NCBI GenBank assembly: GCA_003045865.1
Contig: PZPB01000021.1
Span: forward strand, 1 to 36,182
Length of the DNA stretch: 36,182 nt
Source: Bacteroidota bacterium
GTDB lineage: Bacteria; Bacteroidota; Bacteroidia; Flavobacteriales; Schleiferiaceae
Direction: 5' to 3'
Notes under the pieces: model-generated
Database searches by the model: none
What the model saw: the letters and a program-made list of their open reading frames with translations, nothing else
Told to the model about the DNA's origin: nothing
Made by a program: the position numbers and the translations under genes
In this document: positions 12,865 through 36,087 of the stretch, piece after piece
Position numbering within the stretch: position 1 is the first letter of the stretch
Layout: every line of letters begins with the position of its first letter

Positions 12865-15800
12865 CTATTCCTTTCTAATTTTTTCGTCAAATACTAAGTC
12901 GCCAATCTTTACTTTAAGGTGATAAATGCCAGCGGCAAAATGGTTTAAGGATATGCTTTCCAAAACTTCCTGCCCATTTAAATTTCGGCGTGAAGCATAA
13001 AGTAGAGCTCCACGAGCATCGTACAGGGAAATTTCCATCTCGGCTTGACCGGGGTTCATTAAGCTGATATGTAAAATGTCTCGACTAGGATTGGGATAAA
13101 CCTGCCACTGCCATTCGCTTTTAAGACTTTCGAGGCTTAGGTCAATAATGTCTACGGGATCTGATTCTAAACTGCAAATAGTATTGCTCAGTTCTAGGCT
13201 ATAGCTGCCATTGGTTTGCAGGTTATAGCTCTGTTGGTTGTTGGTTCCTGGGGCGGGACTTCCGTTCAGTAACCACAGGTAATTGGGGGCGGTTTGGTTA
13301 GCACTCAATACCAAGCCCGAGCGTGAAAAACTAGGACTAGGCAAAGCATCAACACTAACCTGGAAGCTGGCGTTTACCGGACAACTGGGCGCGCTAGAGT
13401 ATAAATAGCCGATGCTTAAATTGTGTGTTCCTGCTCCCGCAAGACTGGCGTAGAAGACCCCATTTTGCACGCCATTTCCCGACCAAGAAGTAAGCGTTCC
13501 GGGAATTCCATTCGTATTTACCGTGGCCGAAAGTACGAGGCTGTCGCCTAGGCAAAGAGGCGCGAAGGGTGGACTCATGGTGCTAATAACCGGCAGGGCA
13601 CGAATGTCCATGTTTAAAGTATTGGAAATCCCAGCGCTGCTGCTTGCGCAAGATCCGTTGCCAGTAACTTCCACCCAAACCTGATCGTTATTGGCCAAAG
13701 TAGAATTGGCATAGCTAGAACTGTTCGTTCCTACATTAGTACCATTGAGCTTCCACTGATAGCTGGGGCTTGATCCGCCATTCGTAACACTGGCGCTAAA
13801 ATTAGCATTGCTGCCCGCACAGAGCGTGGTATTGGCCGTACTGATGCTAACGCTTGGAATTGTTGGGGGATTAATAATAACACTAATACTCGCACTACTT
13901 GCCACAGGGTTGCTGGTACAAAGGCTATTGCTCGTCATTTCTACACTTACCGCATCGCCTTGGTTTAGGCTAGTGGAGCTGTAACTTGCACTATTCGTTC
14001 CCACATTTAGGCCATTTACCTTCCATTGGTAGCTTGGGTTGGAGCCTCCCGACGTTGGACTAGCCGTGAAAATTGCATTTTGTCCAGCGCACCAAGAACT
14101 GGCATTGGCACTGATACTTACCGAGGGATTTACATTCGCATCCACTTGAATAAAAGCGGTTTTAGTAGTGTTGGTGTTTCCAAAGCTATTGCTTGCATTG
14201 AGGCTAATCGTATAAGAACCAGCACTGTTAAATTGTACCTGCGGATTTTGCGAAGAACTATTGGTGCCGCCCGTGTAGGTATAGCCGGCAGGACTGATGG
14301 TCCAGGCCCAAGCACTAGGGTTATTGCTACTTAAATCGCTAAAGCTAACACTGCTGCCTGCGCAAATACTACTGTCGTTTGCCGAGAAATCGGCCTGAGG
14401 AACATTGGTATTGGATACGCCGCTAATATTAATATTGTCGAGGTAAAGATTATTGCCATAACCATTAATAGCCTCAAATTTTATCCGCACTTCCGACTGA
14501 CCCGCATAGCTATTGAGGTTAATGCTAGGGCAGTTGGTAATAATCGAATTTCCACACCAATCGCTTGCGCTAGATGGGCTAAAACTTGAGGTCTGGTCGG
14601 CTACCGTTGCAAAGTTCACGCTGGGGTCTGAACTATAACTTGCAATACGTTGGTAGGTCGTGCCACAGTCGGTACTTATGTAGATGGCCATACTATCGCG
14701 ATAGGTTGAACTATAACGGGCATAGGCATAATCAAAGTCGAGGGTGATGCTACTGAAATTACTAAAATTCAAGGGTGGACTAATAAGGCCATCGCGCTCT
14801 CCGGCACTACTGTAATTGAAGAAGTCGATACCTGCAGCGGTATTGCCCGGGCTGCTTCCGCCGATGGTGTTCAAGGCCCAAGTGACGCCATTATCAGGGT
14901 TTTCAACGGTAAATAAACTACTTGTGCCTTCGAAGTCTTCGATAAAAGGAAGACTTAAACCTCCGCTTTGTAAGAAATTGCTTTTGCTTAGGGTATCGCT
15001 ACCATTGGCATTAGAAACGATAAGACTTACAGAATAGGATCCTGTTGCGTTCAGTTGAATTTGCGGATGCTGACTGCTACTTGATGTGCCGCCTACAAAG
15101 GTGAAGGTAGTTGGACTAATGCTCCATTGCCAACTACTGGGATTGCCGGTAGAGGAGTCGCTTAGTTGAATATTTTGGTTAATACAAGCCGTAGCAGGGT
15201 TAGCGTAAAAATCTGCTACAGGCACTTGAGGAACACTGAAACCAGTACTGCTGAAAAGCCCTCGTCCGTGGGTAGCGGCAATAACCGTTTTATCGCTATC
15301 TCTAATTTGTAACATATCTACGCGAACGCGAGAAAGACCGCTGTTGCTGGCGGTCCAGCTAGGACTGCTACTATTGAAATTACTAGTAGACCAAACCCCA
15401 ACTTCGGTAGCAAGAATAACCTCGGCGCGATTGCTCGGGTTAAACAAAGCCCACCGAACCGGCATGTCAGGTAAATTACCTTCTTTACTTTGCCAACTTG
15501 TGCCGCCATTGGAGCTGTACCATACTGAGGTTACGCCATAATTAGAAAAAGTAACCAAAAGTTCATTTTCATTGGCCCCTAATTCTACGCAGGACACATG
15601 CCCGTTGGGAAAACTACTGCTGCCGATATTGGAAGAACTGGGTGTTGAATTAGCATTGGTAACCTTAAAAAGGTCACCTCCTTCAGTTCCCACAAAAAGG
15701 GTAGTGCTGGTAGTGGTGTAGGGTGAGACGCGCAGGTGTGAGGCCATGCTGCTCATGCCGCTAATGCTGATGCTTGAAATACTGGGTGAAGTTCGAATGC

Positions 15801-17622
15801 CGGTTACGCGGTTTACTGTTGTACTTGTGCGAGCGGAATATAAAATTCCCTGATTATCGTCGTATTCTGCGGGATTAATAAAGCGCCCAGTGGAATTGTC
15901 ATTTTGGAAACGTCCGCCCCAGCTTGAGCCAGCATTGGTACTGCGCCAGAAATTATTATAAACGTAGGAGGTAATTTGGTAATTGGCATTGGTCTGATCA
16001 ATAAAGCAATAAGCTCCATCGCCGCCAGTGGCTTGGCTGCTGCTACCAAAACCTGCGGTGGTAAATTTTTGGGTGCCATTATCTTGCGCCCCTGCAAGAG
16101 CGTAATTACTCCCAGCATTAGGATGTATCGCCGCTGCATAAAATTGGGTTACATTATAATCTTGATTTCGCGCGCTTATAACATTGGCAGTAGCGGCGGT
16201 AGCTAATGAAGTCGTGTAAAAAACACCACCATCGGTGCCGAAAAGCACCGTGCTTGAGCTGTTGGGTTTAAATACAATCTGATGTTGATCGGCATGCACA
16301 TAAGAGCAATTAAGTGCGGCTAAGTTGTTATTATTACTCCACTTTGAAATTTGACTCCAAGTACTAGCTCCGTCCGTAGAACGAAATAAATTAATGCCAC
16401 CCACAATGAGCGTATTGGCATTATTGGGGTCAACTGCCATAATTAGATCGTACCATGCCTGCCCACGAGTAAAGTCGGTATTGGGAATGCCATTGTCAAC
16501 ATCAGCGGGTTCATTTCGGGTAGTCCAAGTACTACCTTTATTGGTGCTACGGGCAATTTCTCCCGCTTGCCCGCCTATCTCCGTAAGGGCATAAACATAA
16601 CTAGAATTATTAGGAGCGCAGGCCAGCTCTACTCTCTCGCCATTGGTAATAGTGCGAGAAACTGTCCAGGTGGTACCGTTATCGCTGTAGAGAACTCTAC
16701 CGCCACCTTGGTCGCTTAGGCCAATAGAAGTTTCTTGCGTTCCAATCCAAATACGGTTATCGGCCGCAATTTCAATATCTGCGGCCGCGTAAGGCGAAGA
16801 ACTGCCCGGTATATTAGGTAGTACTTGCGACCAAGAACTGCCTCCGTTTATGCTGCGGTATAATCCATTTACTCCATGCCATTGGCCGCGGAAATAGTTT
16901 TCACGACAAGCGGCATAAACTACACTGCTGCCGTTTTCATTGCGAACGACCAAGTCGTTGATGTAGTGGTAATTGCTAGTAGAACTCAACTGCGTCCAAG
17001 ACGTGCCGCCATTAGTAGATTTCCAAATTCCAGCGCCACGTGAGGCTCCCGCTCCCCAGCCTTCGCCCGTGCCCACATAAAATATTTGACTGTTATTAGG
17101 ATCGTAGGCAATAGCGGTAATGGCTAAATTATCCCATTGATTGCTGACAGAAACCCAAGCGGAGGTGCTGGAAGTAATATTGTTATTATACCAAAGTCCA
17201 CCGGTAACACCACCAGCCCATACCTTATTGCCCGAACTCGCATTGGGGTCCCACATGATAGCGCGTGTTCTGCCGCCTACATTATCGGGGCCTCTTTCGG
17301 TCCAAGGACTAGCCGCTGAACCGGGAATACTGGGGCTAAGTTGATTAGTACTTTGATCTACAATTTGGTAAACTTGTTCTAGGCGTTCTACCGCGGGTCG
17401 ACCTAGAATAGGGTCCATGGTAGCGAGGTAGTTTTGCTCCCAGGCCAAATCGGGTCGATCTTGTGGTGGGTTATTTTTCCACTGGGCTTTGCTTAAACGA
17501 GGTCGGTTGTTAAAGGGGTGTTCGGCTAAAAAGCTCTTATAGCTTTCTCGGGCCGATTGAGGTTTTTCAATAATTTGGGAGGCAGTAAGCAAAAGCAAAC
17601 TGAGGAAAATAACTTTGCGCAT
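12865..17622 (-). CDS. T9SS-secreted multidomain protein with BNR/sortilin-like repeats, PKD and Ig-like domains
   Basis: A 1585-residue exported protein. Order of parts: a hydrophobic signal segment (residues 2-15), then a long beta-propeller region to about 795 with many Asp-box (BNR) motifs such as STNGGTSWT, SINGGSSWS and SSNGGTSWQ. Next come a PKD domain (about 800-885), a jelly-roll/MAM-like module (about 890-1070, with LPFIEDFEG and a closing LYLDNINISG), a second PKD domain similar to the first (about 1075-1160), and Ig-like repeats (about 1162-1425, each with SYQWK-type cores). The type A T9SS sorting domain ends the protein (from VYPNPSRDILHISL, about residue 1506). The propeller resembles VPS10/sortilin and exo-sialidase folds; no catalytic site can be assigned. 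It is probably a surface-attached adhesin or glycan-binding protein. It lies 107 bp downstream of the kinase gene on the same strand. Confidence 0.88.
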   Translation of the reverse strand: MRKVIFLSLLLLTASQIIEKPQSARESYKSFLAEHPFNNRPRLSKAQWKNNPPQDRPDLAWEQNYLATMDPILGRPAVERLEQVYQIVDQSTNQLSPSIPGSAASPWTERGPDNVGGRTRAIMWDPNASSGNKVWAGGVTGGLWYNNNITSSTSAWVSVSNQWDNLAITAIAYDPNNSQIFYVGTGEGWGAGASRGAGIWKSTNGGTSWTQLSSTSNYHYINDLVVRNENGSSVVYAACRENYFRGQWHGVNGLYRSINGGSSWSQVLPNIPGSSSPYAAADIEIAADNRIWIGTQETSIGLSDQGGGRVLYSDNGTTWTVSRTITNGERVELACAPNNSSYVYALTEIGGQAGEIARSTNKGSTWTTRNEPADVDNGIPNTDFTRGQAWYDLIMAVDPNNANTLIVGGINLFRSTDGASTWSQISKWSNNNNLAALNCSYVHADQHQIVFKPNSSSTVLFGTDGGVFYTTSLATAATANVISARNQDYNVTQFYAAAIHPNAGSNYALAGAQDNGTQKFTTAGFGSSSQATGGDGAYCFIDQTNANYQITSYVYNNFWRSTNAGSSWGGRFQNDNSTGRFINPAEYDDNQGILYSARTSTTVNRVTGIRTSPSISSISISGMSSMASHLRVSPYTTTSTTLFVGTEGGDLFKVTNANSTPSSSNIGSSSFPNGHVSCVELGANENELLVTFSNYGVTSVWYSSNGGTSWQSKEGNLPDMPVRWALFNPSNRAEVILATEVGVWSTSNFNSSSPSWTASNSGLSRVRVDMLQIRDSDKTVIAATHGRGLFSSTGFSVPQVPVADFYANPATACINQNIQLSDSSTGNPSSWQWSISPTTFTFVGGTSSSSQHPQIQLNATGSYSVSLIVSNANGSDTLSKSNFLQSGGLSLPFIEDFEGTSSLFTVENPDNGVTWALNTIGGSSPGNTAAGIDFFNYSSAGERDGLISPPLNFSNFSSITLDFDYAYARYSSTYRDSMAIYISTDCGTTYQRIASYSSDPSVNFATVADQTSSFSPSSASDWCGNSIITNCPSINLNSYAGQSEVRIKFEAINGYGNNLYLDNINISGVSNTNVPQADFSANDSSICAGSSVSFSDLSSNNPSAWAWTISPAGYTYTGGTNSSSQNPQVQFNSAGSYTISLNASNSFGNTNTTKTAFIQVDANVNPSVSISANASSWCAGQNAIFTASPTSGGSNPSYQWKVNGLNVGTNSASYSSTSLNQGDAVSVEMTSNSLCTSNPVASSASISVIINPPTIPSVSISTANTTLCAGSNANFSASVTNGGSSPSYQWKLNGTNVGTNSSSYANSTLANNDQVWVEVTGNGSCASSSAGISNTLNMDIRALPVISTMSPPFAPLCLGDSLVLSATVNTNGIPGTLTSWSGNGVQNGVFYASLAGAGTHNLSIGYLYSSAPSCPVNASFQVSVDALPSPSFSRSGLVLSANQTAPNYLWLLNGSPAPGTNNQQSYNLQTNGSYSLELSNTICSLESDPVDIIDLSLESLKSEWQWQVYPNPSRDILHISLMNPGQAEMEISLYDARGALLYASRRNLNGQEVLESISLNHFAAGIYHLKVKIGDLVFDEKIRKE

Positions 17623-17729: not shown

Positions 17730-19088
17730 CTAATCTTTAAATTGAAGCAAGAAACTGCTTCCAACCCCTTCTTGGCTTTGGACCTTTAGATCGCCTCCAT
17801 GCATTTTCATGATGTTTTTAGAAAGACTGAGACCAATGCCTGATCCATTTTTACGGGTGCTAAAAAAGGGCACGAAGATTTGGTTAATTAAATCATCTTC
17901 AATGCCTTCGCCATTATCGCTTACGCGGATGACTACGCCATTTTCCGCTAGTTTAGCACTGAGCTCAATTTCTCCCGCGTGATTTGCGGGCATCGCCGCC
18001 AAGGCATTTTTAATTAGATTCACTAAAACCTGTTCGATCATTTTACGATCGGCATTAAGGGCGAGCCTTTGCTGGTCGAGCTTATAGCGGATTACATAAT
18101 TCTGTTTTTTCGCGCTGGCCTGTAAAAGGCTAAGACAATCTTCGAAAAGAGTTTTAATAGAAATGACCTCTTTAGCAGGAGCGGGCAGTTGGGTTAACTT
18201 GCGGTACTCGTCTACAAAGCTCAGCATTCCTTTACTGCGCCTTACGATGGTTTTGCAAGCCTCACGGATATCGTCTAAATCTTGTTCTTCTAAGTCAGTT
18301 ATATTTTTCTTTTTACCATCTTCCGTCACCAACATCGTACTTACAGTTTCAGAAAGGGAAACCACAGGGGTTACTGAGTTCATTACTTCATGCGCTAAAA
18401 TGCGGATGAGTTTATGCCAAGCGTCAATTTCCTTTTCTTCTACTTCTTGGTGGAGGTTGCTTAGGCTGATCAGGTGGAAGGTTTCATCCTTCAATTTAAT
18501 ATGCTGTAAATCGAGGTAGAGTTCGGTTTTTTTACCGTTGGTATTGTGTTCCCACAGTTTGCGACCGGTAAAATCGAAATTACCAATTAGGCTTTTTAGT
18601 TCGGGGATGCGTTCGCTAAGACGTTCCCACTTTTGAAAGGGCGGTATGTCTAAAATTTCTTGAGCTTTCTCATTAATCAGAAAAATCTCTTTATTTCCGT
18701 TTATACCTAAAATGCCAAGATTGATGTTTTTTAATATTTCACCTAGCAGCGCTTCTTGATTATCTTGGCTTGCCCGCGATGTTTTAAGTTGGGTGAGAAG
18801 AAGCATAAATTCCTCCTCTAAATCGGCAAAAACCCCACCTTTGGAAGCGAGTTCGAAACGGGTACTGTAGTCGCCAAAACGGGCGGATTCTAAAAATTTT
18901 TTGGTTTCGCGAATTAAAGAGGATTGGTAGCGCCAGAAATCCCATATCTGCACTAAAATAAGGAGCATTAGTACCAATAAGGTGAAAAAGAGATTAAACT
19001 TTTGGGCGAGGTATAGGCCAAGGGTAATACTTAAAATAATGCCTATCAGGCGTAAGCCAAACTGAAAAGGGTAGGATTTAAAGTTCAT
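17730..19088 (-). CDS. Sensor histidine kinase, intramembrane-sensing type (NtrY/AtoS-like)
   Basis: A 452-residue kinase. I start at the ATG at 19088, which overlaps the response-regulator stop by 11 bases; a TTG-type start 30 bases upstream is less likely. Two transmembrane segments (about 11-28 and 34-50) are joined by only about five residues, so there is no periplasmic sensor domain. A HAMP-like linker and a PAS domain (about 112-215) follow, then HisKA with the phosphorylated histidine at 233 (ILAHEVMNSVTP), and HATPase with the N box NLIKNALAAMP, the G boxes DNGEGI and GSGIGLSLS, and the F box FVPFFSTRK. It presumably phosphorylates the NtrC-type regulator encoded just upstream. The short membrane hairpin suggests sensing within the membrane or through a partner, perhaps the ABC permease encoded nearby. 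Confidence 0.92.
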   Translation of the reverse strand: MNFKSYPFQFGLRLIGIILSITLGLYLAQKFNLFFTLLVLMLLILVQIWDFWRYQSSLIRETKKFLESARFGDYSTRFELASKGGVFADLEEEFMLLLTQLKTSRASQDNQEALLGEILKNINLGILGINGNKEIFLINEKAQEILDIPPFQKWERLSERIPELKSLIGNFDFTGRKLWEHNTNGKKTELYLDLQHIKLKDETFHLISLSNLHQEVEEKEIDAWHKLIRILAHEVMNSVTPVVSLSETVSTMLVTEDGKKKNITDLEEQDLDDIREACKTIVRRSKGMLSFVDEYRKLTQLPAPAKEVISIKTLFEDCLSLLQASAKKQNYVIRYKLDQQRLALNADRKMIEQVLVNLIKNALAAMPANHAGEIELSAKLAENGVVIRVSDNGEGIEDDLINQIFVPFFSTRKNGSGIGLSLSKNIMKMHGGDLKVQSQEGVGSSFLLQFKD

Positions 19089-20442
19089 ATTTCTCCAATC
19101 TACGGTACAGTGCAGCACGGGTTAAACCTAGGTCTTTAGCGGCTTTAGAAATATTGCCAGCATTTTTGTCCATGGCTTTTTGCACTAAATGTTTTTCCAT
19201 TTCCTCCAAGTTTAAGCCAGGAGGCTCTTTGCCGTTTTGCCCAGCTTTCAGGCCTAAATCACTGGCCTGGACTTCTTTGTTAGAAGCTAAAATTACAGCG
19301 CGTTCTAAACAATGTTCTAACTCGCGAATATTGCCCGGCCAATGGTAATCGCACAGGGCATCAATGGCATTAAGGCTAAGACTAATTTCCTCTTTCAAAT
19401 ACTTCTTGCGAAAGCGATCGAAAAAACGACGCGCCAAAAAGGGTATATCTTCTTTGCGCTGCCGCAGAGGGGGTACCGTAATTTCTACGGTGTTAATACG
19501 ATAGAGTAAATCTTGACGAAAGCGTTGAGTATGCACCCAATCATGCAAAGGACTATTGGTGGCGCAAACCAAGCGAACATCTACTTTTTTGCTACTGTTT
19601 TCGCCCACTCTGCGCAGCTCTTTACTTTGTAAAACGTGCAATAATTTAGACTGTAAACTAAGATCGAGATTGCCAATTTCATCGAGGAAGAGCGTGCCTT
19701 TATCGGCCGTTTCGAAGCGGCCCGCTTTGTCATCTGAGGCATCGGTAAAGGAGCCTTTTTTATGACCAAAGAGTTCACTTTCAAAAAGATTGGGCGCCAC
19801 GGCACCGAGATCTACCGTTACAAAAGGGTTTTCATTGCGCTTGCTCATCCGGTGAATGGCGAGGGAGAGCACACTTTTCCCCGTACCATTTTCTCCTAAG
19901 AGTAAAATATTTGCATCGGTGCTAGCTACTTTTTTTAGGGTTTCTAAAACCGACTGCATTGCTGGCGATCGGCTAAGCAGCTCTTCTTGCGCTAGCCCCG
20001 CATTATTTTCCCACTGTTTATTGCTACTGCGGTAAACTTCCACTTTCGCCTTCTCTTGCGCTAAGCGTAAAGCGTTGCTTAAGGTGCTGAGTAGTTTTTC
20101 GTTGGTCCAAGGTTTTAATACAAAGTCGAAAGCTCCTTTTTTTATGGCCTGTACCGCTAGTTCCACCTCGCCGTAAGCAGTCATCATTACCACTTGGGTT
20201 TGCGGACTTATTTCTAAAATATGTTTAAGCCAATACAATCCTTCCGCGCCATCATTGCGGCCTTTACGAAAGTTCATGTCTAGTAAAACAAGGTCCACCT
20301 TACTTTTTGTAAGGAGCTGATTGAGACTGCTCGGATCTTCGTTGGTGCTAACCGTTTGAAAATGTTGCTTTAAAAAGAGGCGTGCACTTGTTAGTACATC
20401 GGCATCATCATCAACAATAACTATGTGGGCAGGGATTTTCAC
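19078..20442 (-). CDS. Sigma-54-dependent response regulator (NtrC family)
   Basis: A 454-residue enhancer-binding protein. The receiver domain (about 1-125) has the acidic pair at 11-13, the phosphorylated aspartate at 55 (LVLLDMNF) and the conserved threonine and lysine (MMTAYGE, VLKPW). The AAA+ domain has Walker A GENGTGKS, the sigma-54 contact loop ELFGHKKGSFTDA (GSFTDA replaces the classical GAFTGA), and Walker B GTLFLDEIG. The C-terminal Fis-type helix-turn-helix is NISKAAKDLGLTRAALYRRL. It starts at a GTG (20442); the protein opens directly with the beta-strand IVIVDDD. It drives transcription with sigma-54 and most likely acts at the paired palindromes and -24/-12 element just upstream. 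Confidence 0.94.
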   Translation of the reverse strand: MKIPAHIVIVDDDADVLTSARLFLKQHFQTVSTNEDPSSLNQLLTKSKVDLVLLDMNFRKGRNDGAEGLYWLKHILEISPQTQVVMMTAYGEVELAVQAIKKGAFDFVLKPWTNEKLLSTLSNALRLAQEKAKVEVYRSSNKQWENNAGLAQEELLSRSPAMQSVLETLKKVASTDANILLLGENGTGKSVLSLAIHRMSKRNENPFVTVDLGAVAPNLFESELFGHKKGSFTDASDDKAGRFETADKGTLFLDEIGNLDLSLQSKLLHVLQSKELRRVGENSSKKVDVRLVCATNSPLHDWVHTQRFRQDLLYRINTVEITVPPLRQRKEDIPFLARRFFDRFRKKYLKEEISLSLNAIDALCDYHWPGNIRELEHCLERAVILASNKEVQASDLGLKAGQNGKEPPGLNLEEMEKHLVQKAMDKNAGNISKAAKDLGLTRAALYRRLEKYEL

Positions 20443-20460
20443 TTAACGAAAGTACTTCTC

Positions 20461-20498
20461 TGTTCGAATACGAACAAGGGGTTGTTCATTTTCGAACA
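20461..20498. promoter_or_regulatory. Paired 16-bp palindromes, probable enhancer for the NtrC-type regulator
   Basis: TGTTCGAATACGAACA (20461-20476) is a perfect 6-4-6 palindrome. TGTTCATTTTCGAACA (20483-20498) matches it with one base breaking the symmetry. Their centres are 22 bp apart, about two helical turns, so two dimers would bind on the same face. They start 18 bp upstream of the regulator's own start codon and about 90-110 bp before the likely start site of the sigma-54 element at 20552, which is typical enhancer spacing. Confidence 0.75.
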
Positions 20499-20551
20499 GA
20501 TAAATAAAATGTCATTTAGTTATTTAAATGAAAATCAAATATTTAGACTTG

Positions 20552-20566
20552 TGGCATAGCCTTCGC
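20552..20566 (+). promoter_or_regulatory. Candidate sigma-54 promoter (-24/-12)
   Basis: TGGCAT-N5-TCGC keeps the essential GG and GC with correct spacing and differs by one base in each half from TGGCAC-N5-TTGC. Transcription would start near 20578, pointing towards the structured RNA and the ABC transporter. The paired palindromes upstream and the neighbouring NtrC-type gene support it. Confidence 0.6.
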
Positions 20567-20594
20567 CTATCAATAAGCTGAAAACTAAAACGTA

Positions 20595-20760
20595 AAAATT
20601 TTTAAAAACCTCGGGAGCTGCCTGCAGCAACGTTCTTTTCACCGGGCTTTAATTGCAAAATTTGAATTTGGTTGTTTAATTAGTTCAAGTAGCAGAATTT
20701 AGGGTTAAATCGGTTATCCTCCTTGCAATTAAAACTCAGCCCGAGGTTTTTAATTTTTTA
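20595..20760 (+). ncRNA. Structured RNA candidate (6S-like or leader attenuator)
   Basis: A perfect 14-bp closing stem, TTAAAAACCTCGGG (20602-20615) with CCCGAGGTTTTTAA (20740-20753), can be extended outward by A/T pairs. Inside it lie a small hairpin GCTGC/GCAGC (20617-20628) and an 11-bp upper stem TTTAATTGCAA (20648-20658) with TTGCAATTAAA (20723-20733). The closing stem is followed by AATTTTTTA, so the RNA would end like an intrinsic terminator near 20760, 86 bases before the ABC ATPase gene. A long closing stem, an asymmetric bubble and an upper stem in about 160-180 nt resembles 6S RNA, for which a distinct flavobacterial family exists in Rfam. Alternatively it is a regulated leader of the transporter mRNA. 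The strand is inferred from the T-tract. Confidence 0.55.
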
Positions 20761-20846
20761 CAAGCATCTCTTCTATAAACTCAGGTTATAAGGCTTTTAT
20801 CTTCAGATTTCTATTAATTTCACGCTTCTGTTTACAAACCTTTTTT

Positions 20847-21536
20847 ATGATTAAGCTTCATAATCTAACCAAGATATACCAGGCGCAAGGCGTTGAAACT
20901 CGCGCTCTTAGTGAAGTTGATTTAACGGTAAAAAAAGGCGAATTCGTTTCTATCATGGGCCCTTCGGGTTGTGGGAAAACCACGCTATTAAATATTATTG
21001 GTCTATTAGACTCTTATAATGAGGGTCTTTTTGTTTTTAATGATGCTAATGTTTCGGATCTCAATGAGCGTCAAAAACTCAAGTTGAGAAAAGAGAAAAT
21101 TGGCTTTGTCTTCCAAAATTTCAATCTGATCGACGATCTTACGGTAATTGAAAACATTGAGCTGCCTTTGCACTATTTGGGCTATTCAGCGCAAGATCGC
21201 CGGCAGCGCGTATTGGAGGTTTTAGAGATGGTAGGCATGGGGCATCGTCGCGATTTTTTCCCCTACCAATTAAGTGGGGGGCAACAACAGAAAGTAGCGG
21301 TAGGTCGCGCAATTATTGCCAAGCCCAGTTTAATTTTAGCAGATGAGCCCACGGGGAATCTCGACTCTACCCAAGGGAATGAAATAATGGAAATGTTGAG
21401 TCGCCTAAACGATCAAGGCACCACTTTAATAATGGTTACCCATAGCAGTCACGATGCGTCTTATTCTCAGCGTATTGTGCGAATAATGGATGGGCAGGTA
21501 GTGTCGGAAAAGAAGGTGCTGCATGCCCAGTTCTAA
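20847..21536 (+). CDS. ABC transporter ATP-binding protein (MacB/LolD type)
   Basis: A 229-residue cytoplasmic ATPase with all motifs intact: Walker [11 protein letters not shown]-loop [12 protein letters not shown], signature [14 protein letters not shown], Walker [13 protein letters not shown] and H-loop MVTHSSHDA. The sequence type (short, with an [17 protein letters not shown] block) places it with the LolD/MacB/FtsE group, which powers mechanotransmission by FtsX-like permeases rather than classical channel transport. It overlaps the permease gene by 14 bases. Upstream is a 404-bp region with regulator sites, a sigma-54 element and a structured RNA. The likely role is extrusion of a toxic compound, or an envelope-stress function, controlled by the divergent two-component system; the substrate is unknown. 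Confidence 0.95.
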
Positions 21537-23937
21537 GTTTAGATTTGCCCTGCGCAGCCTTTATCGGCAAAAGCTCTACACTATTTTAAATTTGGGCGGC
21601 TTAGCCATTGGCTTAGCGGTAGCCATTACCGTAAGCATCTATCTCAATGCCGAATTTAATTTCGATAAGCATTGGCCGAACTACGAAAAAATTTATCGGG
21701 TAAATTCATCCTTCCAACTTAATAGTACGGTAGAAGAATACGGCGGCTCCGGTCTAGGCTTAGCTGCGCTAATGAAAGACTATTATCCAGAAGTTGAAGA
21801 AGCCACGCATTTCTTTTCTTTCGAAAACTCCGTTTACTTCCGTAGCGATAGCGTGAAAGGTTATGAAAATGAATTGTTGGTTGCGGATGCTAATTTCTTT
21901 AAGGTTTTTAACTGTCATTTTATAGAGGGTGAAGCAGATGCTAGTTTGGATGCAGAACGAAGCATAGTAATCTCTGAATCTTTTGCCCGTAAGTATTTTG
22001 GGAGCAAACCCGCATTAGGACAAACCCTTAATACCAGTAATTTCGAATATCTCGTTAGAGGTGTTTTTGAGGATATCCCCGATAATACGCATCATAATTT
22101 TAATGCGGTTATTTCCGAACCAATTGCGGCCTTAGATACTATGTCTTTGGCGGTTTCCTTGTGGCAGGTTAGTCACTATACTTTTCTTAAAATCCCATCT
22201 GCCCTTGAGGCGCAAAATATTGAGGCTAATTTCCCAAACTTTTATGATCGTTACATGGCAGGATTGGCCGATGCTGTGCAGGCCGAGTATCGGATAAAAT
22301 TGCAGCAAATAAGCGATATCCATTTTAATACAAATCCTGGTTTCGACGCCATCGGGGGTAGTCTAATTTACGTGTACGGCTTTGCGGGAATCGGATTGTT
22401 AGTTTTGGTTTTAGCGATAATTAATTATGTAAATATGGCTACGGCCCGCAGTTTACGCCGCATTCGGGAGGCAGCCATGCGCAAGGTTTTGGGCGCAAGC
22501 GAAGGCGATATTCAGCTCATGATTTTGGTGGAGTCGGTTATTCTTACTTTGCTGGCCTTGCTTTTAGCTTTCGCCTTAGTAGAGATTGGCACCAAAGTTT
22601 TACCACTTACTAATGCCATTGATAAAGATCTGCAGCTAAATTTTAAACGCGATGCTTACCTATGGTGGCTGCCTTTAGTACTCTCCATTTTCGTGGGAAT
22701 AATTAGTGGATTATATCCAGCGCTCAGCCTCTCTAAAGTTTCCCCTCTCGATGCTTTTAGTAATAAAAAGGGCTTGCAAAGGCAAAATAATATTCCCCGT
22801 AAATTATTGGTGGGGTTTCAGGTGGCGGTTTCGGTAACGGTGGTTATTACCGCTTTTTTCATGTATCAGCAAATGGATTTTATTAAGAATCGCAATCTGG
22901 GTTTCAATCCCAACGATGTGATTTTAATAACGGCGCAAGACACCAATTCGGTGATGCACTTGCAGGAAATTCGCGATAATATTGCGCAAAGTGACTACGT
23001 AGAGTCGGTGGCGATGGGGGCCAGCGTTACCGGTAGAGGGGCTTATCGTGGTATTTTTGAAGCCGAAACAGAGGCCAATAAGGGCTTTCAAAGACATTCC
23101 CTCGATTTTTTACGAGTAAGCAGAGACTACCTTAAAACCATGCAAATTGATCTGCTGCAAGGGCGTTCTTTCCTTACGGAAGATGAGCAGGACTCAAGTT
23201 TCAACTATGCCATTGTTAATCAGTCTTTAGTAGAGTTTATGGGCTGGGAGCAACCCATCGGGAAAAAACTAAATACTAGTTTTAACGAAAGGGGAGAAGC
23301 CATGCTAAAGGCGCTGGTGGTTGGGGTGGCCGAAGATTTTAATGCCCATTCGCTTCACACGAAAGTGGCCCCATTGGTTTTACTTTTAAGTAAAGAAAGG
23401 TCACGGGTACTGCATGTAAAAGTCGATCCTAACAATATTTATGTGGCCTTAGACGATTTAGAGCGACGCTGGACCAGCATGGTTCCCAATGCTCCTTTTC
23501 AGTTTTCCTTTTTAAGCCGCGATCTCTTAGAACTATATACTGAAGAAATGCGACAGTCGCGCTTGATTCTTTACCTCACTATTATTGCCATCTTTATTAG
23601 TATTCTTGGCTTTGTGGGCTTGGCTTCTTTTACCACAGGTTTGCGTACGCGCGAAATTGGCATTCGCCGTTTACTAGGTGCGGGCCGACTGCAAATGGTA
23701 AATATTGTGTTTAAGGAATTACTATGGGTGATGCTTATTGGCGTGCTAATAGCAGTGCCATTGGCCCTATATATTACCCAATTGTGGTTGGCGAATTTTG
23801 CTTTTCATACCGAAATTAAGGCGCCAATAATTGTGGGTACCGCAGTAATTACCTTGCTTATCGGTTATGGTATTGTCGCCCTGCATTCTTTGGCTATCGC
23901 CAAAAAGAATAGCGTGGATTCGTGGCGCGGAGCTTAA
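21523..23937 (+). CDS. ABC transporter permease, double FtsX/MacB-like
   Basis: An 804-residue inner-membrane protein with two copies of the MacB periplasmic core plus FtsX unit. Predicted membrane segments: one near the N-terminus (ILNLGGLAIGLAVAITVSIYL), three in the middle (from YVYGFAGIGLLVLVLAIINY, then SVILTLLALLLAFALV and LPLVLSIFVGIISGLY), one opening the second half (LVGFQVAVSVTVVITAFFMY) and three at the end (from LYLTIIAIFISILGFVG onward). The coupling elements EAAMRKVLGAS and EIGIRRLLGAG, which contact the ATPase, occur once in each half, so one polypeptide can pair with an ATPase dimer. This is a common Bacteroidota arrangement. The gene overlaps the ATPase gene by 14 bases. No outer-membrane partner is encoded nearby. 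Confidence 0.93.
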   Translation: MPSSKFRFALRSLYRQKLYTILNLGGLAIGLAVAITVSIYLNAEFNFDKHWPNYEKIYRVNSSFQLNSTVEEYGGSGLGLAALMKDYYPEVEEATHFFSFENSVYFRSDSVKGYENELLVADANFFKVFNCHFIEGEADASLDAERSIVISESFARKYFGSKPALGQTLNTSNFEYLVRGVFEDIPDNTHHNFNAVISEPIAALDTMSLAVSLWQVSHYTFLKIPSALEAQNIEANFPNFYDRYMAGLADAVQAEYRIKLQQISDIHFNTNPGFDAIGGSLIYVYGFAGIGLLVLVLAIINYVNMATARSLRRIREAAMRKVLGASEGDIQLMILVESVILTLLALLLAFALVEIGTKVLPLTNAIDKDLQLNFKRDAYLWWLPLVLSIFVGIISGLYPALSLSKVSPLDAFSNKKGLQRQNNIPRKLLVGFQVAVSVTVVITAFFMYQQMDFIKNRNLGFNPNDVILITAQDTNSVMHLQEIRDNIAQSDYVESVAMGASVTGRGAYRGIFEAETEANKGFQRHSLDFLRVSRDYLKTMQIDLLQGRSFLTEDEQDSSFNYAIVNQSLVEFMGWEQPIGKKLNTSFNERGEAMLKALVVGVAEDFNAHSLHTKVAPLVLLLSKERSRVLHVKVDPNNIYVALDDLERRWTSMVPNAPFQFSFLSRDLLELYTEEMRQSRLILYLTIIAIFISILGFVGLASFTTGLRTREIGIRRLLGAGRLQMVNIVFKELLWVMLIGVLIAVPLALYITQLWLANFAFHTEIKAPIIVGTAVITLLIGYGIVALHSLAIAKKNSVDSWRGA

Positions 23938-32457: not shown

Positions 32458-32529
32458 TGCCCCATCGTCTAATTGGCAGGACAGCTGTTTTTGGTGCAGT
32501 CGGTCGAGGTTCGAGTCCTCGTGGGGCAA
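32458..32529 (+). tRNA. tRNA-Gln (anticodon TTG)
   Basis: A complete 72-nt cloverleaf: acceptor stem TGCCCCA/TGGGGCA with discriminator A, D stem GTCT/GGAC, anticodon stem GCTGT/GCAGT with loop TTTTGGT giving anticodon TTG, a 4-base variable loop, and T arm CGAGG-TTCGAGT-CCTCG. The CCA end is not encoded. It has its own promoter and terminator. Confidence 0.96.
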
Positions 32530-32542
32530 CTAATAAAGTTCT

Positions 32543-32855: not shown

Positions 32856-34388
32856 ATGCACAAGCTGATGTTTAAAGTCTATCGTTATTTCTTTGGTATT
32901 TCACTACTGCTAGGCTTATCCTTAAATCTTGGAACACCCCTCTGTGCACAAACCTCTTATTTCAACATCATTCACCCTCCTGGTGATAATAATGCAGATG
33001 TAATCGAAACGGACTCTTCCTATGTGTTAATGCAGCAGGGTAATCCATTTTGGAATGACCTGCATTTGCATCATTTCGATAAAACTGGCATTCATTTAAA
33101 AACGGACTCCATTAGATTTAATGCTTTTTATGAAAGTAGCTTAGGGGGATTAGCGAATTTCAAAAAGGGATATCTAAAGCTTGGGACTTTATTTAGTGGG
33201 TCAGATACAGGAAGGGCACATTTAACTTATTTCAATGAAAAATTAGATACTGTTCGAACTTGGAATTATTCATATTTGAACCAGCAAAGTACAGAAGCCA
33301 TCAGCGTCCACTTTTATGAGCCAAATACAATACTTGTAACCGGCATGTATTTCATTAGGGCAGGAAACCGAAGACATGGTCTTGCAATTGCTTTGGACAC
33401 AAGTTTTAATGTCATCTGGGAAAAGACCTATTTTCCAACAAATCTCAATAATTTGGGCGGTTACTCTTTTACTGACGCGATATCGACTATTGATGGCGGT
33501 TATGTTTTTGGTGGTGAGAGAGTTTACTTCACTAATGATAGTAGCCAATTAGATAAAGGCTTAATTCTAAAGGTGGATAGCTTAGGTAATGAAGAGTGGA
33601 GAAGAGAAATCTCAGGACCAAAAGGGTCTAATAAGGTACTTGTCCAAGAGTTAAATGACACATGCTTCGCCTTTATCACAAGTCAAAAGATAAGGTATCT
33701 ACAGGACCACTTTTTTACTACAAGACTCAGATACGGTAAGATGAGTCTTAGTAATCAAGTTTATGTAGACACGGTATTTACTTACACCGGTGTTGATATC
33801 CACACCTACTTCTTCCATAAAGACAATAACGGTAACTTAATCACTGGTGGATATATACACAATCCCAATTGGGGAAGCTACGCTATGCAACTATCTAGTA
33901 ACGGAGATAGTCTTTGGTTTAAAGATTACTTTAATGGACCGGACCGGGTTTTAGAAATTGGTGTATTAGAATCCATGACCTTTACCCAAGATGGAGGGAT
34001 GCTGTTTGCCGGTTATTTTTTGGACCGAAACGGCAATGGAGCCAATATGTGGTTAGTGAAAACCGATAGTTTGGGTTGCGATACACTGGGCTGTCATAAC
34101 ATTGGTTTGGAAGAACTACCACGGCCTATGTTTGCCAATATTCATTTGTATCCTAATCCCGCTAAGGACCAAGTGCAGCTTTCGCTAAATAACGTGCTTA
34201 TTAAGGATTATCAAAAATTAACGGTAACAGTGTTAAACCCGCTGGGCCAATTACTAAGTTCTCAGAGCCTTTTACTAAACAAATCAGGAATAAAGCTGGA
34301 TATTTCCGGTCTACCCACTGGTACCTATTTGGTAGAAGTCTGGGCAGATGAAAGCTCCTTGGGGGTTGCAAGGCTGGTTGTTCAGTAA
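32856..34388 (+). CDS. T9SS-secreted beta-propeller-like protein, paralog A
   Basis: A 510-residue exported protein. A signal peptide covers about residues 1-31 (hydrophobic ISLLLGLSLNLG, ending at LCAQ). The mature part has repeated segments of the type DGGYVFGGE, KGLILKVDSLGNEEWRR and DGGMLFAGYFLDRNGNG-ANMWLVKTDSLG, which suggest a beta-propeller similar to proteins of the Bacteroidota delta-60/PQQ-like kind. A type A T9SS sorting domain starts at LYPNPAKDQ (about residue 430). No catalytic residues can be named. An in-frame ATG at 32868 is an alternative start. It has a tandem paralog 199 bp downstream, and between them is the remnant of another sorting domain. Base composition looks more AT-rich and codon choice less GCG-rich than in the housekeeping genes of the window; this is a visual impression only. 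Confidence 0.85.
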   Translation: MHKLMFKVYRYFFGISLLLGLSLNLGTPLCAQTSYFNIIHPPGDNNADVIETDSSYVLMQQGNPFWNDLHLHHFDKTGIHLKTDSIRFNAFYESSLGGLANFKKGYLKLGTLFSGSDTGRAHLTYFNEKLDTVRTWNYSYLNQQSTEAISVHFYEPNTILVTGMYFIRAGNRRHGLAIALDTSFNVIWEKTYFPTNLNNLGGYSFTDAISTIDGGYVFGGERVYFTNDSSQLDKGLILKVDSLGNEEWRREISGPKGSNKVLVQELNDTCFAFITSQKIRYLQDHFFTTRLRYGKMSLSNQVYVDTVFTYTGVDIHTYFFHKDNNGNLITGGYIHNPNWGSYAMQLSSNGDSLWFKDYFNGPDRVLEIGVLESMTFTQDGGMLFAGYFLDRNGNGANMWLVKTDSLGCDTLGCHNIGLEELPRPMFANIHLYPNPAKDQVQLSLNNVLIKDYQKLTVTVLNPLGQLLSSQSLLLNKSGIKLDISGLPTGTYLVEVWADESSLGVARLVVQ

Positions 34389-34409: not shown

Positions 34410-34613
34410 GACTGGCTCAAATGCGGCATTGAAGGCCCCATAAGATTTATAATACTTAACTGATTAGGTCAAGGTCAAGAAGTAATTAATTTAGAGGACT
34501 ATAAGAGCAATAGTTGCCTGATGGATTTTTGTGGTTACCTCCCTGGACTATACCATTTGCAAATTGAAACTGATGGGAATATTTTGGATGTCAAATATCT
34601 GGTTAAAATTGAA
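34410..34613 (+). pseudogene. Remnant of a T9SS C-terminal sorting domain
   Basis: In the frame of codons beginning at multiples of three, the translation reads GPIRFIILN, a TGA stop at 34461-34463, then LGQGQEVINLEDYKSNS and, a little later, YLPGLYHLQIETDGN followed by YLVKIE. This is the layout of a type A T9SS sorting domain (I/V-I-x-N-x-LGQ ... LPxGLYxLxIxTxG ... KxLVK). The upstream part, including the YPNP motif, is missing or unrecognisable, and the stop codon falls where a small residue is expected. The fragment ends where the signal peptide of paralog B begins, and overlaps its first codons in another frame. It is best explained as the tail of a third family member left by deletion or recombination. 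Confidence 0.72.
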
Positions 34614-36087
34614 CCGTACACTATTCTTACTGGTTTGTGTATGGTCCACACAGGCTCAAACTAGCCATTTCAACATCATTCACCCACCCGGTGATAATAA
34701 TGCGGATGTTATCGAAACCGACTCATCCTATGTGATTATGCAGCAGGGTAACCCACCCTTTGAAGCTCTTCACCTACACCACTTTGACAAAAGTGGAGCA
34801 TATTCTAAGACTGATTCTTTTGACTTGGGAACTTTTTATGAAAGTGCATTTAATGGTATTTGCGACTTTAAGGATGGGTACTTAAAACTGAGTACCATGT
34901 ATTTTAATCAAGATACAATTTGGATTCACCTTACTCACTTTGATAGTAAATTAGACACTTTACAAACTCTGAAGTATTCGCACCTTAATCAGTTAAGTAC
35001 TCAAGCCATAAGTGTTCATTATTTTCCTCCGAACACCATTGTTATTTCTGGCATGTACGGAGTTCGTGCTGGGCTAAGAATGCATGGTTACCTATTAGCC
35101 TTAGACACTACCTTGCAGGTGAAGTGGGAACGAACATACATTCCCACAAACTTGAATGGTCAAGGTGGCTTTGTGTTTTATGACGTTGCTTCAGTATCTG
35201 ATGGCGGTTTTTTTATAGGTGGTGAACGTCTTTTCTTCGGGACAAATGGACTATCAAGACGAAAAGGGGTCTTGCTTAAAATTGATAGTTTAGGACAAGA
35301 GGTTTGGCGAGAAGAATTAGATGGTCCTGAAGGAAACCACAGGGTATTGGTAGAAGAAGTAGATGATAGTTCTGCTGCCTTTTTCACCACTCGCATTGAT
35401 ATCCCAGATTCCCAACCCTTCACTCAACTAAGGTTTGGTGTAGCGGATAATAATGGAATTCTACTTGACACCACTATGGGTGGGGTCGTCCGCAATATGA
35501 CTCCTGACTTTTTTGAATGGTCACCTAACATAGGTTTTGTGGGAGGTGGTTTCGCACAAGGTTTAGGTTTCAAAAGTTACGTGGCTAACATTGACCCAAT
35601 CGGCTCAATCAACTGGAAAAGAGAATACTTCAATGGTAATGATATCGGCACTGATTATGGTTTCTTAGAATCAATGACCTTCACCCAAGATGGAGGGATG
35701 CTATTTGCCGGTTATTTCTTGGACCGAAATGGTAACGGAGCTAATATGTGGTTAGTGAAAACCGATAGTTTGGGTTGCGATACACCAGGCTGTCATAACA
35801 TTGGTTTGGATGAGTTATTGCAACCACGTCTTTCAAACATCGAACTCTATCCTAATCCCGCTAAGGATGAAGTAAGCTTATCTTTCAATCCCTCTATTCC
35901 ATCAGAGTCTAAAGAAATTACGGTTCAAATACTCAACTTACAGGGGAAGCTTGTTCGGTCGCAAACTATTCAAATTGACCAATTAGACTTGAGTATTGAT
36001 GTCTCAGGATTGCCCAGTGGAGCCTATATTCTAGAGGCATTTTCGGACAAGGGAAAACTGGGTTATACAAAGCTGGTGATTGAATGA
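34588..36087 (+). CDS. T9SS-secreted beta-propeller-like protein, paralog B
   Basis: A 499-residue exported protein closely related to paralog A along its whole length (shared blocks FNIIHPPGDNNADVIETD, HLHHFDK and LESMTFTQDGGMLFAGY). I start at the ATG at 34588, giving signal peptide MSNIWLKLNRTLFLLVC and cleavage after AQ. A TTG at 34609 gives a more compact signal peptide and begins exactly where the preceding pseudogene ends, so it is a real alternative; the GTG at 34531 lies inside that pseudogene and is unlikely. The C-terminal T9SS sorting domain starts at LYPNPAKDEVSLSF. Function unknown. Beyond the stop codon the last 95 bases of the window show nothing. Confidence 0.83.
   Translation: MSNIWLKLNRTLFLLVCVWSTQAQTSHFNIIHPPGDNNADVIETDSSYVIMQQGNPPFEALHLHHFDKSGAYSKTDSFDLGTFYESAFNGICDFKDGYLKLSTMYFNQDTIWIHLTHFDSKLDTLQTLKYSHLNQLSTQAISVHYFPPNTIVISGMYGVRAGLRMHGYLLALDTTLQVKWERTYIPTNLNGQGGFVFYDVASVSDGGFFIGGERLFFGTNGLSRRKGVLLKIDSLGQEVWREELDGPEGNHRVLVEEVDDSSAAFFTTRIDIPDSQPFTQLRFGVADNNGILLDTTMGGVVRNMTPDFFEWSPNIGFVGGGFAQGLGFKSYVANIDPIGSINWKREYFNGNDIGTDYGFLESMTFTQDGGMLFAGYFLDRNGNGANMWLVKTDSLGCDTPGCHNIGLDELLQPRLSNIELYPNPAKDEVSLSFNPSIPSESKEITVQILNLQGKLVRSQTIQIDQLDLSIDVSGLPSGAYILEAFSDKGKLGYTKLVIE

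Follow-up and report, generated by a model that had tools for sequence, protein, structure and literature searches.

The question raised by this locus is what a control region situated between the gene of an NtrC-type regulator and the genes of an ABC transporter switches on, and what would be transcribed from it first. The locus lies in a window of 36,182 nucleotides, the whole stretch of DNA that was analysed (contig PZPB01000021.1, assembly GCA_003045865.1), from a marine flavobacterium of the family Schleiferiaceae whose genome (G000) is a 3.05-Mb draft, about 90% complete. Open reading frames and Pfam matches place the genes in the order given by an earlier sequence-only reading: the regulator gene (19078-20442, minus strand, GTG start), the control region (20443-20846) and the ABC genes on the plus strand. 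The same reading took the regulator for an enhancer-binding protein, in agreement with its receiver-AAA+-HTH_8 architecture (Pfam receiver, Sigma54_activat and HTH_8) and with the presence of a sigma-54 gene in the same genome. The gene for a sensor histidine kinase (17730-19118, minus strand; HATPase_c, 83 bits in Pfam), the listed reading frame of which overlaps the regulator gene, is likely co-transcribed with it. On the other side follow a MacB/LolD/DarD-like ABC transporter ATPase (20847-21536, plus strand; Pfam ABC_tran, all NCBIfam matches shown being below cut-off) and an ABC permease with MacB_PCD and FtsX domains (21523-23937, plus strand; ADOP-like match below cut-off). Elsewhere the window encodes three Por_Secre_tail proteins (12865-17622, minus strand, with PKD domains; 32856-34388 and 34531-36087, plus strand) and a tRNA-Gln with anticodon TTG (32458-32530, plus strand).

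Homologues of the regulator were found in 99 of 99 genomes searched, and close orthologues in 20 genomes including that of the window (57-100% identity; 57-77% in the other 19, all Schleiferiaceae). The 20 orthologous loci (L018-L037) all have an ABC ATPase orthologue downstream, seen at L025 (genome G009) in a longer piece, L092.

The sequence-only reading had described two 16-bp palindromes with centres 22 bp apart; their position and spacing stand, whereas the second is imperfect by one pair. Both are proposed activator sites. The first, TGTTCGAATACGAACA (20461-20476), is a perfect TGTTCGN4CGAACA, and the second, TGTTCATTTTCGAACA (20483-20498), has five perfect outer pairs and a mismatched innermost pair, so that the tandem site as a whole (20461-20498) reads TGTTCN6GAACA-N6-TGTTCN6GAACA. 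The 36-kb window contains TGTTCN6GAACA twice, where shuffled sequence has it 0.04 times on average, and among 5000 dinucleotide shuffles of 20443-20846 at least one such site arose in one and two sites in none; a search of the own genome for further copies of the full exact pattern TGTTCGN4CGAACA showed that it occurs once. Conservation of the palindromes and of the promoter element in relatives was checked by comparing the 20 orthologous upstream regions, and it was found: the tandem site has 0, 1, 2 and 3 mismatches in 9, 5, 4 and 2 loci, respectively. Allowing up to three mismatches, the tandem pattern had matches in 13 of 35 genomes scanned. Those with zero to two mismatches are confined to the upstream regions of genes orthologous or homologous to the regulator gene, which fits a dedicated local activator with predicted binding at this site, and most matches with three mismatches lie elsewhere. 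Since 18 bp separate the GTG start codon of the regulator gene from the first palindrome, it is plausible from the sequence that the regulator also controls its own gene.

Promoters of the -24/-12 type have the consensus GG-N10-GC, with transcription starting about 12 nt after the GC. An element of this form, TGGCATAGCCTTCGCC (20552-20567, plus strand), lies 53 bp after the second palindrome, where the sequence-only reading had put it, and would set the start of transcription near 20578. The distance from the tandem site to the best match is 53 bp in 14 loci, 52 in two, 64 in one and 86 in three, and the 52-53 bp gap is accordingly kept in 16 of the 20. GG was found in 20 of 20 loci and GC in 15, in a scan that favoured GG and took the position as the best match among 55. 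The three loci with the 86-bp gap belong to one genus, g9, and have a poor -12 half; steps of 11 and 33 bp correspond to whole helical turns, and because of that poor half such a reading of the 86-bp gap is uncertain. At two homologues from another family (L038 and L039) the gap is 64-65 bp, and at L039 the next gene encodes an HlyD-type exporter protein. Shuffling 20443-20846 5000 times with dinucleotides preserved produced TGGCA-N8-GC in 55 cases; taken alone the promoter element is therefore weak, and the case for it rests on its conservation. A -24/-12 element, a nearby AAA+ activator together with a genomic sigma-54, and upstream sites at a fixed distance were thus all found, and the control region, as predicted from sequence, is confirmed as a conserved sigma-54 switch. 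The claim that this promoter activates the ABC genes is supported in part, by the type of regulator, by the sigma-54 gene and by the conserved site, spacing and promoter; it passed over an intervening RNA of about 155 nt, here called RNA1.

RNA1 (20600-20759, plus strand) is a structured RNA with a U-rich 3' end, preceded by a conserved leader, GAAAACTAAAACGTAAAAAT (20580-20599, plus strand), 19 of 20 bases of which are identical in six of six genomes of the window's genus, its own included. Folded, 20580-20775 forms a closed structure more stable than every one of 200 shuffles (z -3.57); a covariance model, R1, matches 20602-20756. The closing stem P1 is formed by a 5' arm at 20604-20615 and a 3' arm at 20740-20751, the latter followed by a U-run (20754-20759). 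Within the structure lies a core (20664-20719, plus strand) with the hairpin AGTTC-AAGTAGCA-GAATT at 20682-20699, and in the same six genomes 55 of the 56 bases of this core are identical. The promoter spacer, by comparison, has 9 identical bases out of 53, and the gap that separates RNA1 from the ABC gene 18 out of 87. These counts cover six of the seven genomes of the genus, G005 being left out because it carries the remnant of a lost small gene.

Both arms of P1 covary, five pairs being changed on both sides among 16 aligned copies (the three g9 copies and L034 omitted). Over the whole structure 95.4% of the cells pair, and neither this percentage nor the covariation score was reached in 500 shuffles; the number of doubly changed pairs was reached by 16 of them and the number of pair types by 374. 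Sliding the alignment by -1 also gives five doubly changed pairs, but only 70.6% of the cells then pair. Helix P4, which uses G-U pairs of the plus strand, and the hairpin are nearly invariant and therefore show no covariation. The P3 stem is variable, as seen in single folds, and was misplaced by MAFFT; RNAalifold recovered P1 and the hairpin, along with two short helices that were not used. Stem arms from the single folds are present in 18 loci (L023 and L027 omitted), counted for presence only and not as covariation, with the second arm misplaced at L035.

A search of Rfam 15 gave nothing above the gathering threshold in 20440-20860 and only a tRNA in the whole window. RNA1 was considered as a 6S RNA (6S-Flavo, RF01685) and rejected, as the sole match of that family in the own genome lies elsewhere; this 6S-Flavo-like RNA, at G000:C148:1066-1174 (L048), scores 50 bits, below the family cut-off of 85. 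A CCTCC in RNA1 was likewise considered as an anti-Shine-Dalgarno sequence and dropped, not being conserved across genera. RNA1 would be a conserved, folded, noncoding RNA without an Rfam match, and the first thing transcribed from the promoter.

The core motif GTTCAAGTAGCAG is present in 20 of 20 upstream regions of close regulator orthologues and absent at the next five regulator homologues, which belong to other families. By DNA comparison the RNA1 region was found in 15 of 59 genomes, the own one included, from six genera. Model R1 matched 17 of 88 genomes of the family, with one copy each, at the regulator locus; it did not pick up the three copies in g9, where the motif is exact, and the known total is 20 loci. 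In a sample of 296 genomes of the order, searched with strict filters, the model gave 12 matches, all in Schleiferiaceae, and the core pattern had 15 matches in a collection of 84,980 species, taken as loci already found. In the collections searched, RNA1 occurs once per genome, only in Schleiferiaceae and only at the regulator locus. Among the genomes that carry it are Phaeocystidibacter luteus and, under the names Owenweeksia or Cryomorphaceae, several MAGs.

Eight loci of sister genera (g4, g14, g19 and one g9 genome) have a gene for a small secreted protein between the promoter and RNA1. The protein, 117-121 aa in the aligned sequences, has no supported Pfam match and is encoded by the first gene after the sigma-54 promoter (L025-L027, L029-L031, L033 and L037), where it is preceded by a sequence like the leader. 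In the window's genus no small gene follows the promoter, G005 showing an apparent remnant, and the leader and RNA1 are kept, which speaks against RNA1 being a by-product of the small gene. This bears on a simpler explanation of the locus, namely that the exporter genes just have a sigma-54 promoter and a long untranslated leader, in which case the RNA structure would be incidental. The same site and promoter before the HlyD-type gene of another family would suit such an arrangement, as would a survey, in the portion of its text available, which predicts sigma-54 control of FtsX-type ABC permease genes, with Bacteroidia among the enriched classes (PMC12316311). Nevertheless, the structure of RNA1, its covariation, the very high conservation of the core and the retention of RNA1 where the adjacent small gene is gone make this explanation quite improbable. 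In five of the seven genomes of the genus (L019, L020, L022, L023 and L024; neither the window nor G005) we also observed an 18-codon hydrophobic reading frame, e.g. MIILVFLIFIGVLISKLF, between RNA1 and the ABC gene; it is possibly a leader peptide, and its 3' part looks, by eye, able to pair before the ABC start codon.

Of the 13 sister-genus loci, 12 (the exception being that of g17) have a second RNA, RNA2, after RNA1 and before the ABC gene. Its core, TTTTGTGTTAAACGT or a variant, is mostly inside a terminator-like stem. The exact 15-mer is absent from the window's genus (seven genomes) and occurs at 22 places in 9 of the 88 family genomes, nine at the regulator locus and 13 elsewhere, of which ten were read. 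Six of these ten (L082, L084, L086, L088, L089 and L091) are antisense copies that immediately precede the start codon of a SusC/RagA-type gene (both proteins tested score above the TIGR04057 cut-off), and the other four (L083, L085, L087 and L090) belong to a sibling RNA that carries a terminator-like hairpin of its own and, 47-59 bp before the core, a -24/-12-like GG-N10-G[CA] element. The complementarity of RNA2 to the SusC start region extends over 17, 17, 19, 19, 22 and 22 nt in six genomes, against 10 nt in G021, for which a later ATG was chosen by us as the start; the sibling RNA is complementary to the same region over 16, 18, 19 and 23 nt.

The complementarity is kept through changes on both sides. 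Two g9 genomes have CACGTTT in the target and AAACGTG in RNA2, where G009 and G024 have AACGTTT and AAACGTT. In G019 and G033 the RNA2 sequence AAACGTA is unpaired at that base, and the sibling RNA pairs there. G021 has AACTCAAA against TTTGAGTT, the other six AACACAAA against TTTGTGTT, and further pairing in G021 requires a bulged base. Conserved target complementarity with compensatory change, as expected of a base-pairing sRNA, was thus found, and the changes that keep the pairing are strong evidence that RNA2, which is not in the window, pairs with the SusC-type mRNA. The RNA2 of G030 reads ATTGAGTGTTAAACGTG; if the pairing is selected, its SusC start region should resemble CACGTTTAACACTCAAT. 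Mutual pairing of RNA1 and RNA2 was considered by eye and dropped, as the g9 sequences do not fit.

The core of RNA1 is AT-rich and lies upstream of the ABC genes, and the related core of RNA2 recurs elsewhere in both orientations, so one might take the conserved core for a DNA element, such as a second promoter or operator of the ABC genes, rather than for RNA. The covariation of P1 and the dependence of P4 on G-U pairs of one strand speak against this, as does the fact that every RNA2-core copy read was either an antisense site at a SusC start codon or an RNA with a terminator-like hairpin, and we regard a DNA element as very improbable indeed.

The main rival to a trans-acting RNA is a leader or attenuator acting in cis, in which P1 and the U-run would stop most transcripts and a signal or protein would permit read-through into the ABC genes. 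At each of the 20 loci RNA1 separates the promoter from the ABC orthologue, U follows P1 in 16 of 16 aligned copies, and the three g9 genomes in which RNA1 is without a U-run have a terminator-like end on RNA2, all of which favours an attenuator. A near-invariant core of 56 nt with its hairpin is, however, more than a terminator requires, and a standard terminator scan found none at RNA1, because the loop of P1 is long. No antiterminator was found by eye, and between RNA1 and the ABC start region (L025 omitted, the search region of L034 shifted by 9 nt) matches of 7-9 nt were seen in 4 of 19 loci, at differing places. The neighbouring RNA2 is, moreover, of the trans-pairing type, and its presence at the same locus in relatives was counted in favour of RNA1 acting in trans. 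We consider an attenuator rather unlikely as the explanation of RNA1; cis and trans roles could also both hold.

If RNA1 acts in trans, a candidate target is at hand in the window's genus. A SusC-type gene is present in six of its seven genomes at the cut-off used, without an RNA2 site, and with an upstream neighbour that appears similar by eye (L168 and L171 compared with L153 and L155). Two places in its start region match the RNA1 core in antiparallel order, GGATAACC (-22 to -15) and AACAACCAAA (+5 to +14). In the own genome the gene is on G000:C49, and the RNA1 segment TTTGGTTGTT (20667-20676, plus strand) is complementary to its codons 2-5, the segment GGTTATCC (20712-20719, plus strand) to the upstream place. 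The two-site match comprises 8 + 10 nt in five of the six genomes and 8 + 7 nt in G004, the RNA1 of which has a changed base without compensation.

The match was chosen post hoc. Its 18 paired bases were reached by 7 of 5000 shuffles of the own SusC start region and by none of 54 controls. A further 270 control start regions, drawn from 400 kb of G003, also stayed below 18, one of them scoring 17. A single 10-nt match was reached by 126 of 5000 shuffles and by one control in each set (1/54 and 1/270). Codons 2-5 of the SusC-type gene are identical in all six genomes, and over the part of the gene covered 93 of 520 codons for conserved residues are identical. Seven genomes from other genera, each compared with its own RNA1, do not show the two-site match, and the RNA1 core is not enriched for complementarity to the 270 sampled start regions relative to shuffled cores. 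Plain duplex energies did not discriminate targets. A pattern search for antisense partners of RNA1 in 36 genomes gave, besides RNA1 itself, only scattered matches with one mismatch, a second search in 30 genomes gave counts near those of the reversed-pattern control, and no recurring long partner was seen in these matches taken in aggregate. Pairing of RNA1 with the SusC-type mRNA of the window's genus is thus suggestive.

We consider it fairly probable, judging from the DNA, that the locus is an enhancer-binding protein/sigma-54 switch producing a trans-acting sRNA ahead of an exporter. The histidine kinase would phosphorylate the regulator, which would then bind the tandem site and open the sigma-54 promoter. 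The first product would be RNA1, a noncoding, folded transcript some 160-180 nt long that starts near 20578 and ends in its U-rich 3' end. Part of the transcription probably reads through into the ABC exporter genes at 20847, which is plausible because the ABC ATPase orthologue is found at all 20 loci and because a like site precedes the HlyD-type gene in another family. RNA1 would act in trans, as a base-pairing sRNA on mRNAs of envelope proteins, with the SusC-type gene as candidate target, and the signal would increase the exporter and decrease an import protein of the outer membrane. More tentatively, and with less than even confidence, a single two-component sigma-54 system may control the exporter together with RNA1, RNA2 and the RNA2 sibling that shut off the SusC-type protein (export on, import off); in the window's genus, which is without RNA2, an altered target start may have let RNA1 take over.

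Parts of this arrangement are known from other bacteria. The Pseudomonas RNA CrcZ is an Hfq decoy. CrcZ and NrsZ, which depend on CbrA/B or NtrB/C together with RpoN, are transcribed from an RpoN promoter beside the gene of their own NtrC-type regulator, according to the part of the source available (PMC8395346), and resemble the RNA1 locus in this intergenic position; they differ in phylum and in that RNA1 precedes an exporter operon, a relation in sequence being judged by the Rfam search alone. In E. coli the two-component sigma-54 activator QseEF drives the envelope-linked sRNA GlmY (PMC6075780), a combination like that proposed here, at least in the portion of the account at hand. Unlike what is proposed for RNA1, GlmY works through RapZ/GlmZ (PMC7073468, available in part), and sequence relation was again judged by Rfam alone. 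FopS and GibS of Bacteroides thetaiotaomicron are described in the accessible part of one paper as trans-acting RNAs that pair near susC-like start codons (PMC11697453). RNA2, and perhaps RNA1, would be similar by this description. SusC-directed sRNAs from another sigma factor are known (PMC11697453, PMC7366714, both available in part), but FopS is multicopy with sigma-ABfr promoters, and the same accessible text describes no link to a sigma-54 regulator or an exporter (PMC11697453). The survey of FtsX-type ABC genes likewise predicts a sigma-54 promoter, and the terms 'small RNA' and 'sRNA' are absent from the available portion of its text (PMC12316311). No description of such an RNA, or of this combination, was found among the literature matches listed, which cover few subscription journals.

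Because RNA2 has coevolved with its target, the base-pairing claim is directly testable. Proteobacteria have sRNAs that are transcribed with sigma-54 next to the activator gene, and Bacteroides has sRNAs directed at SusC that depend on a different sigma factor; the present locus would join both in one phylum.
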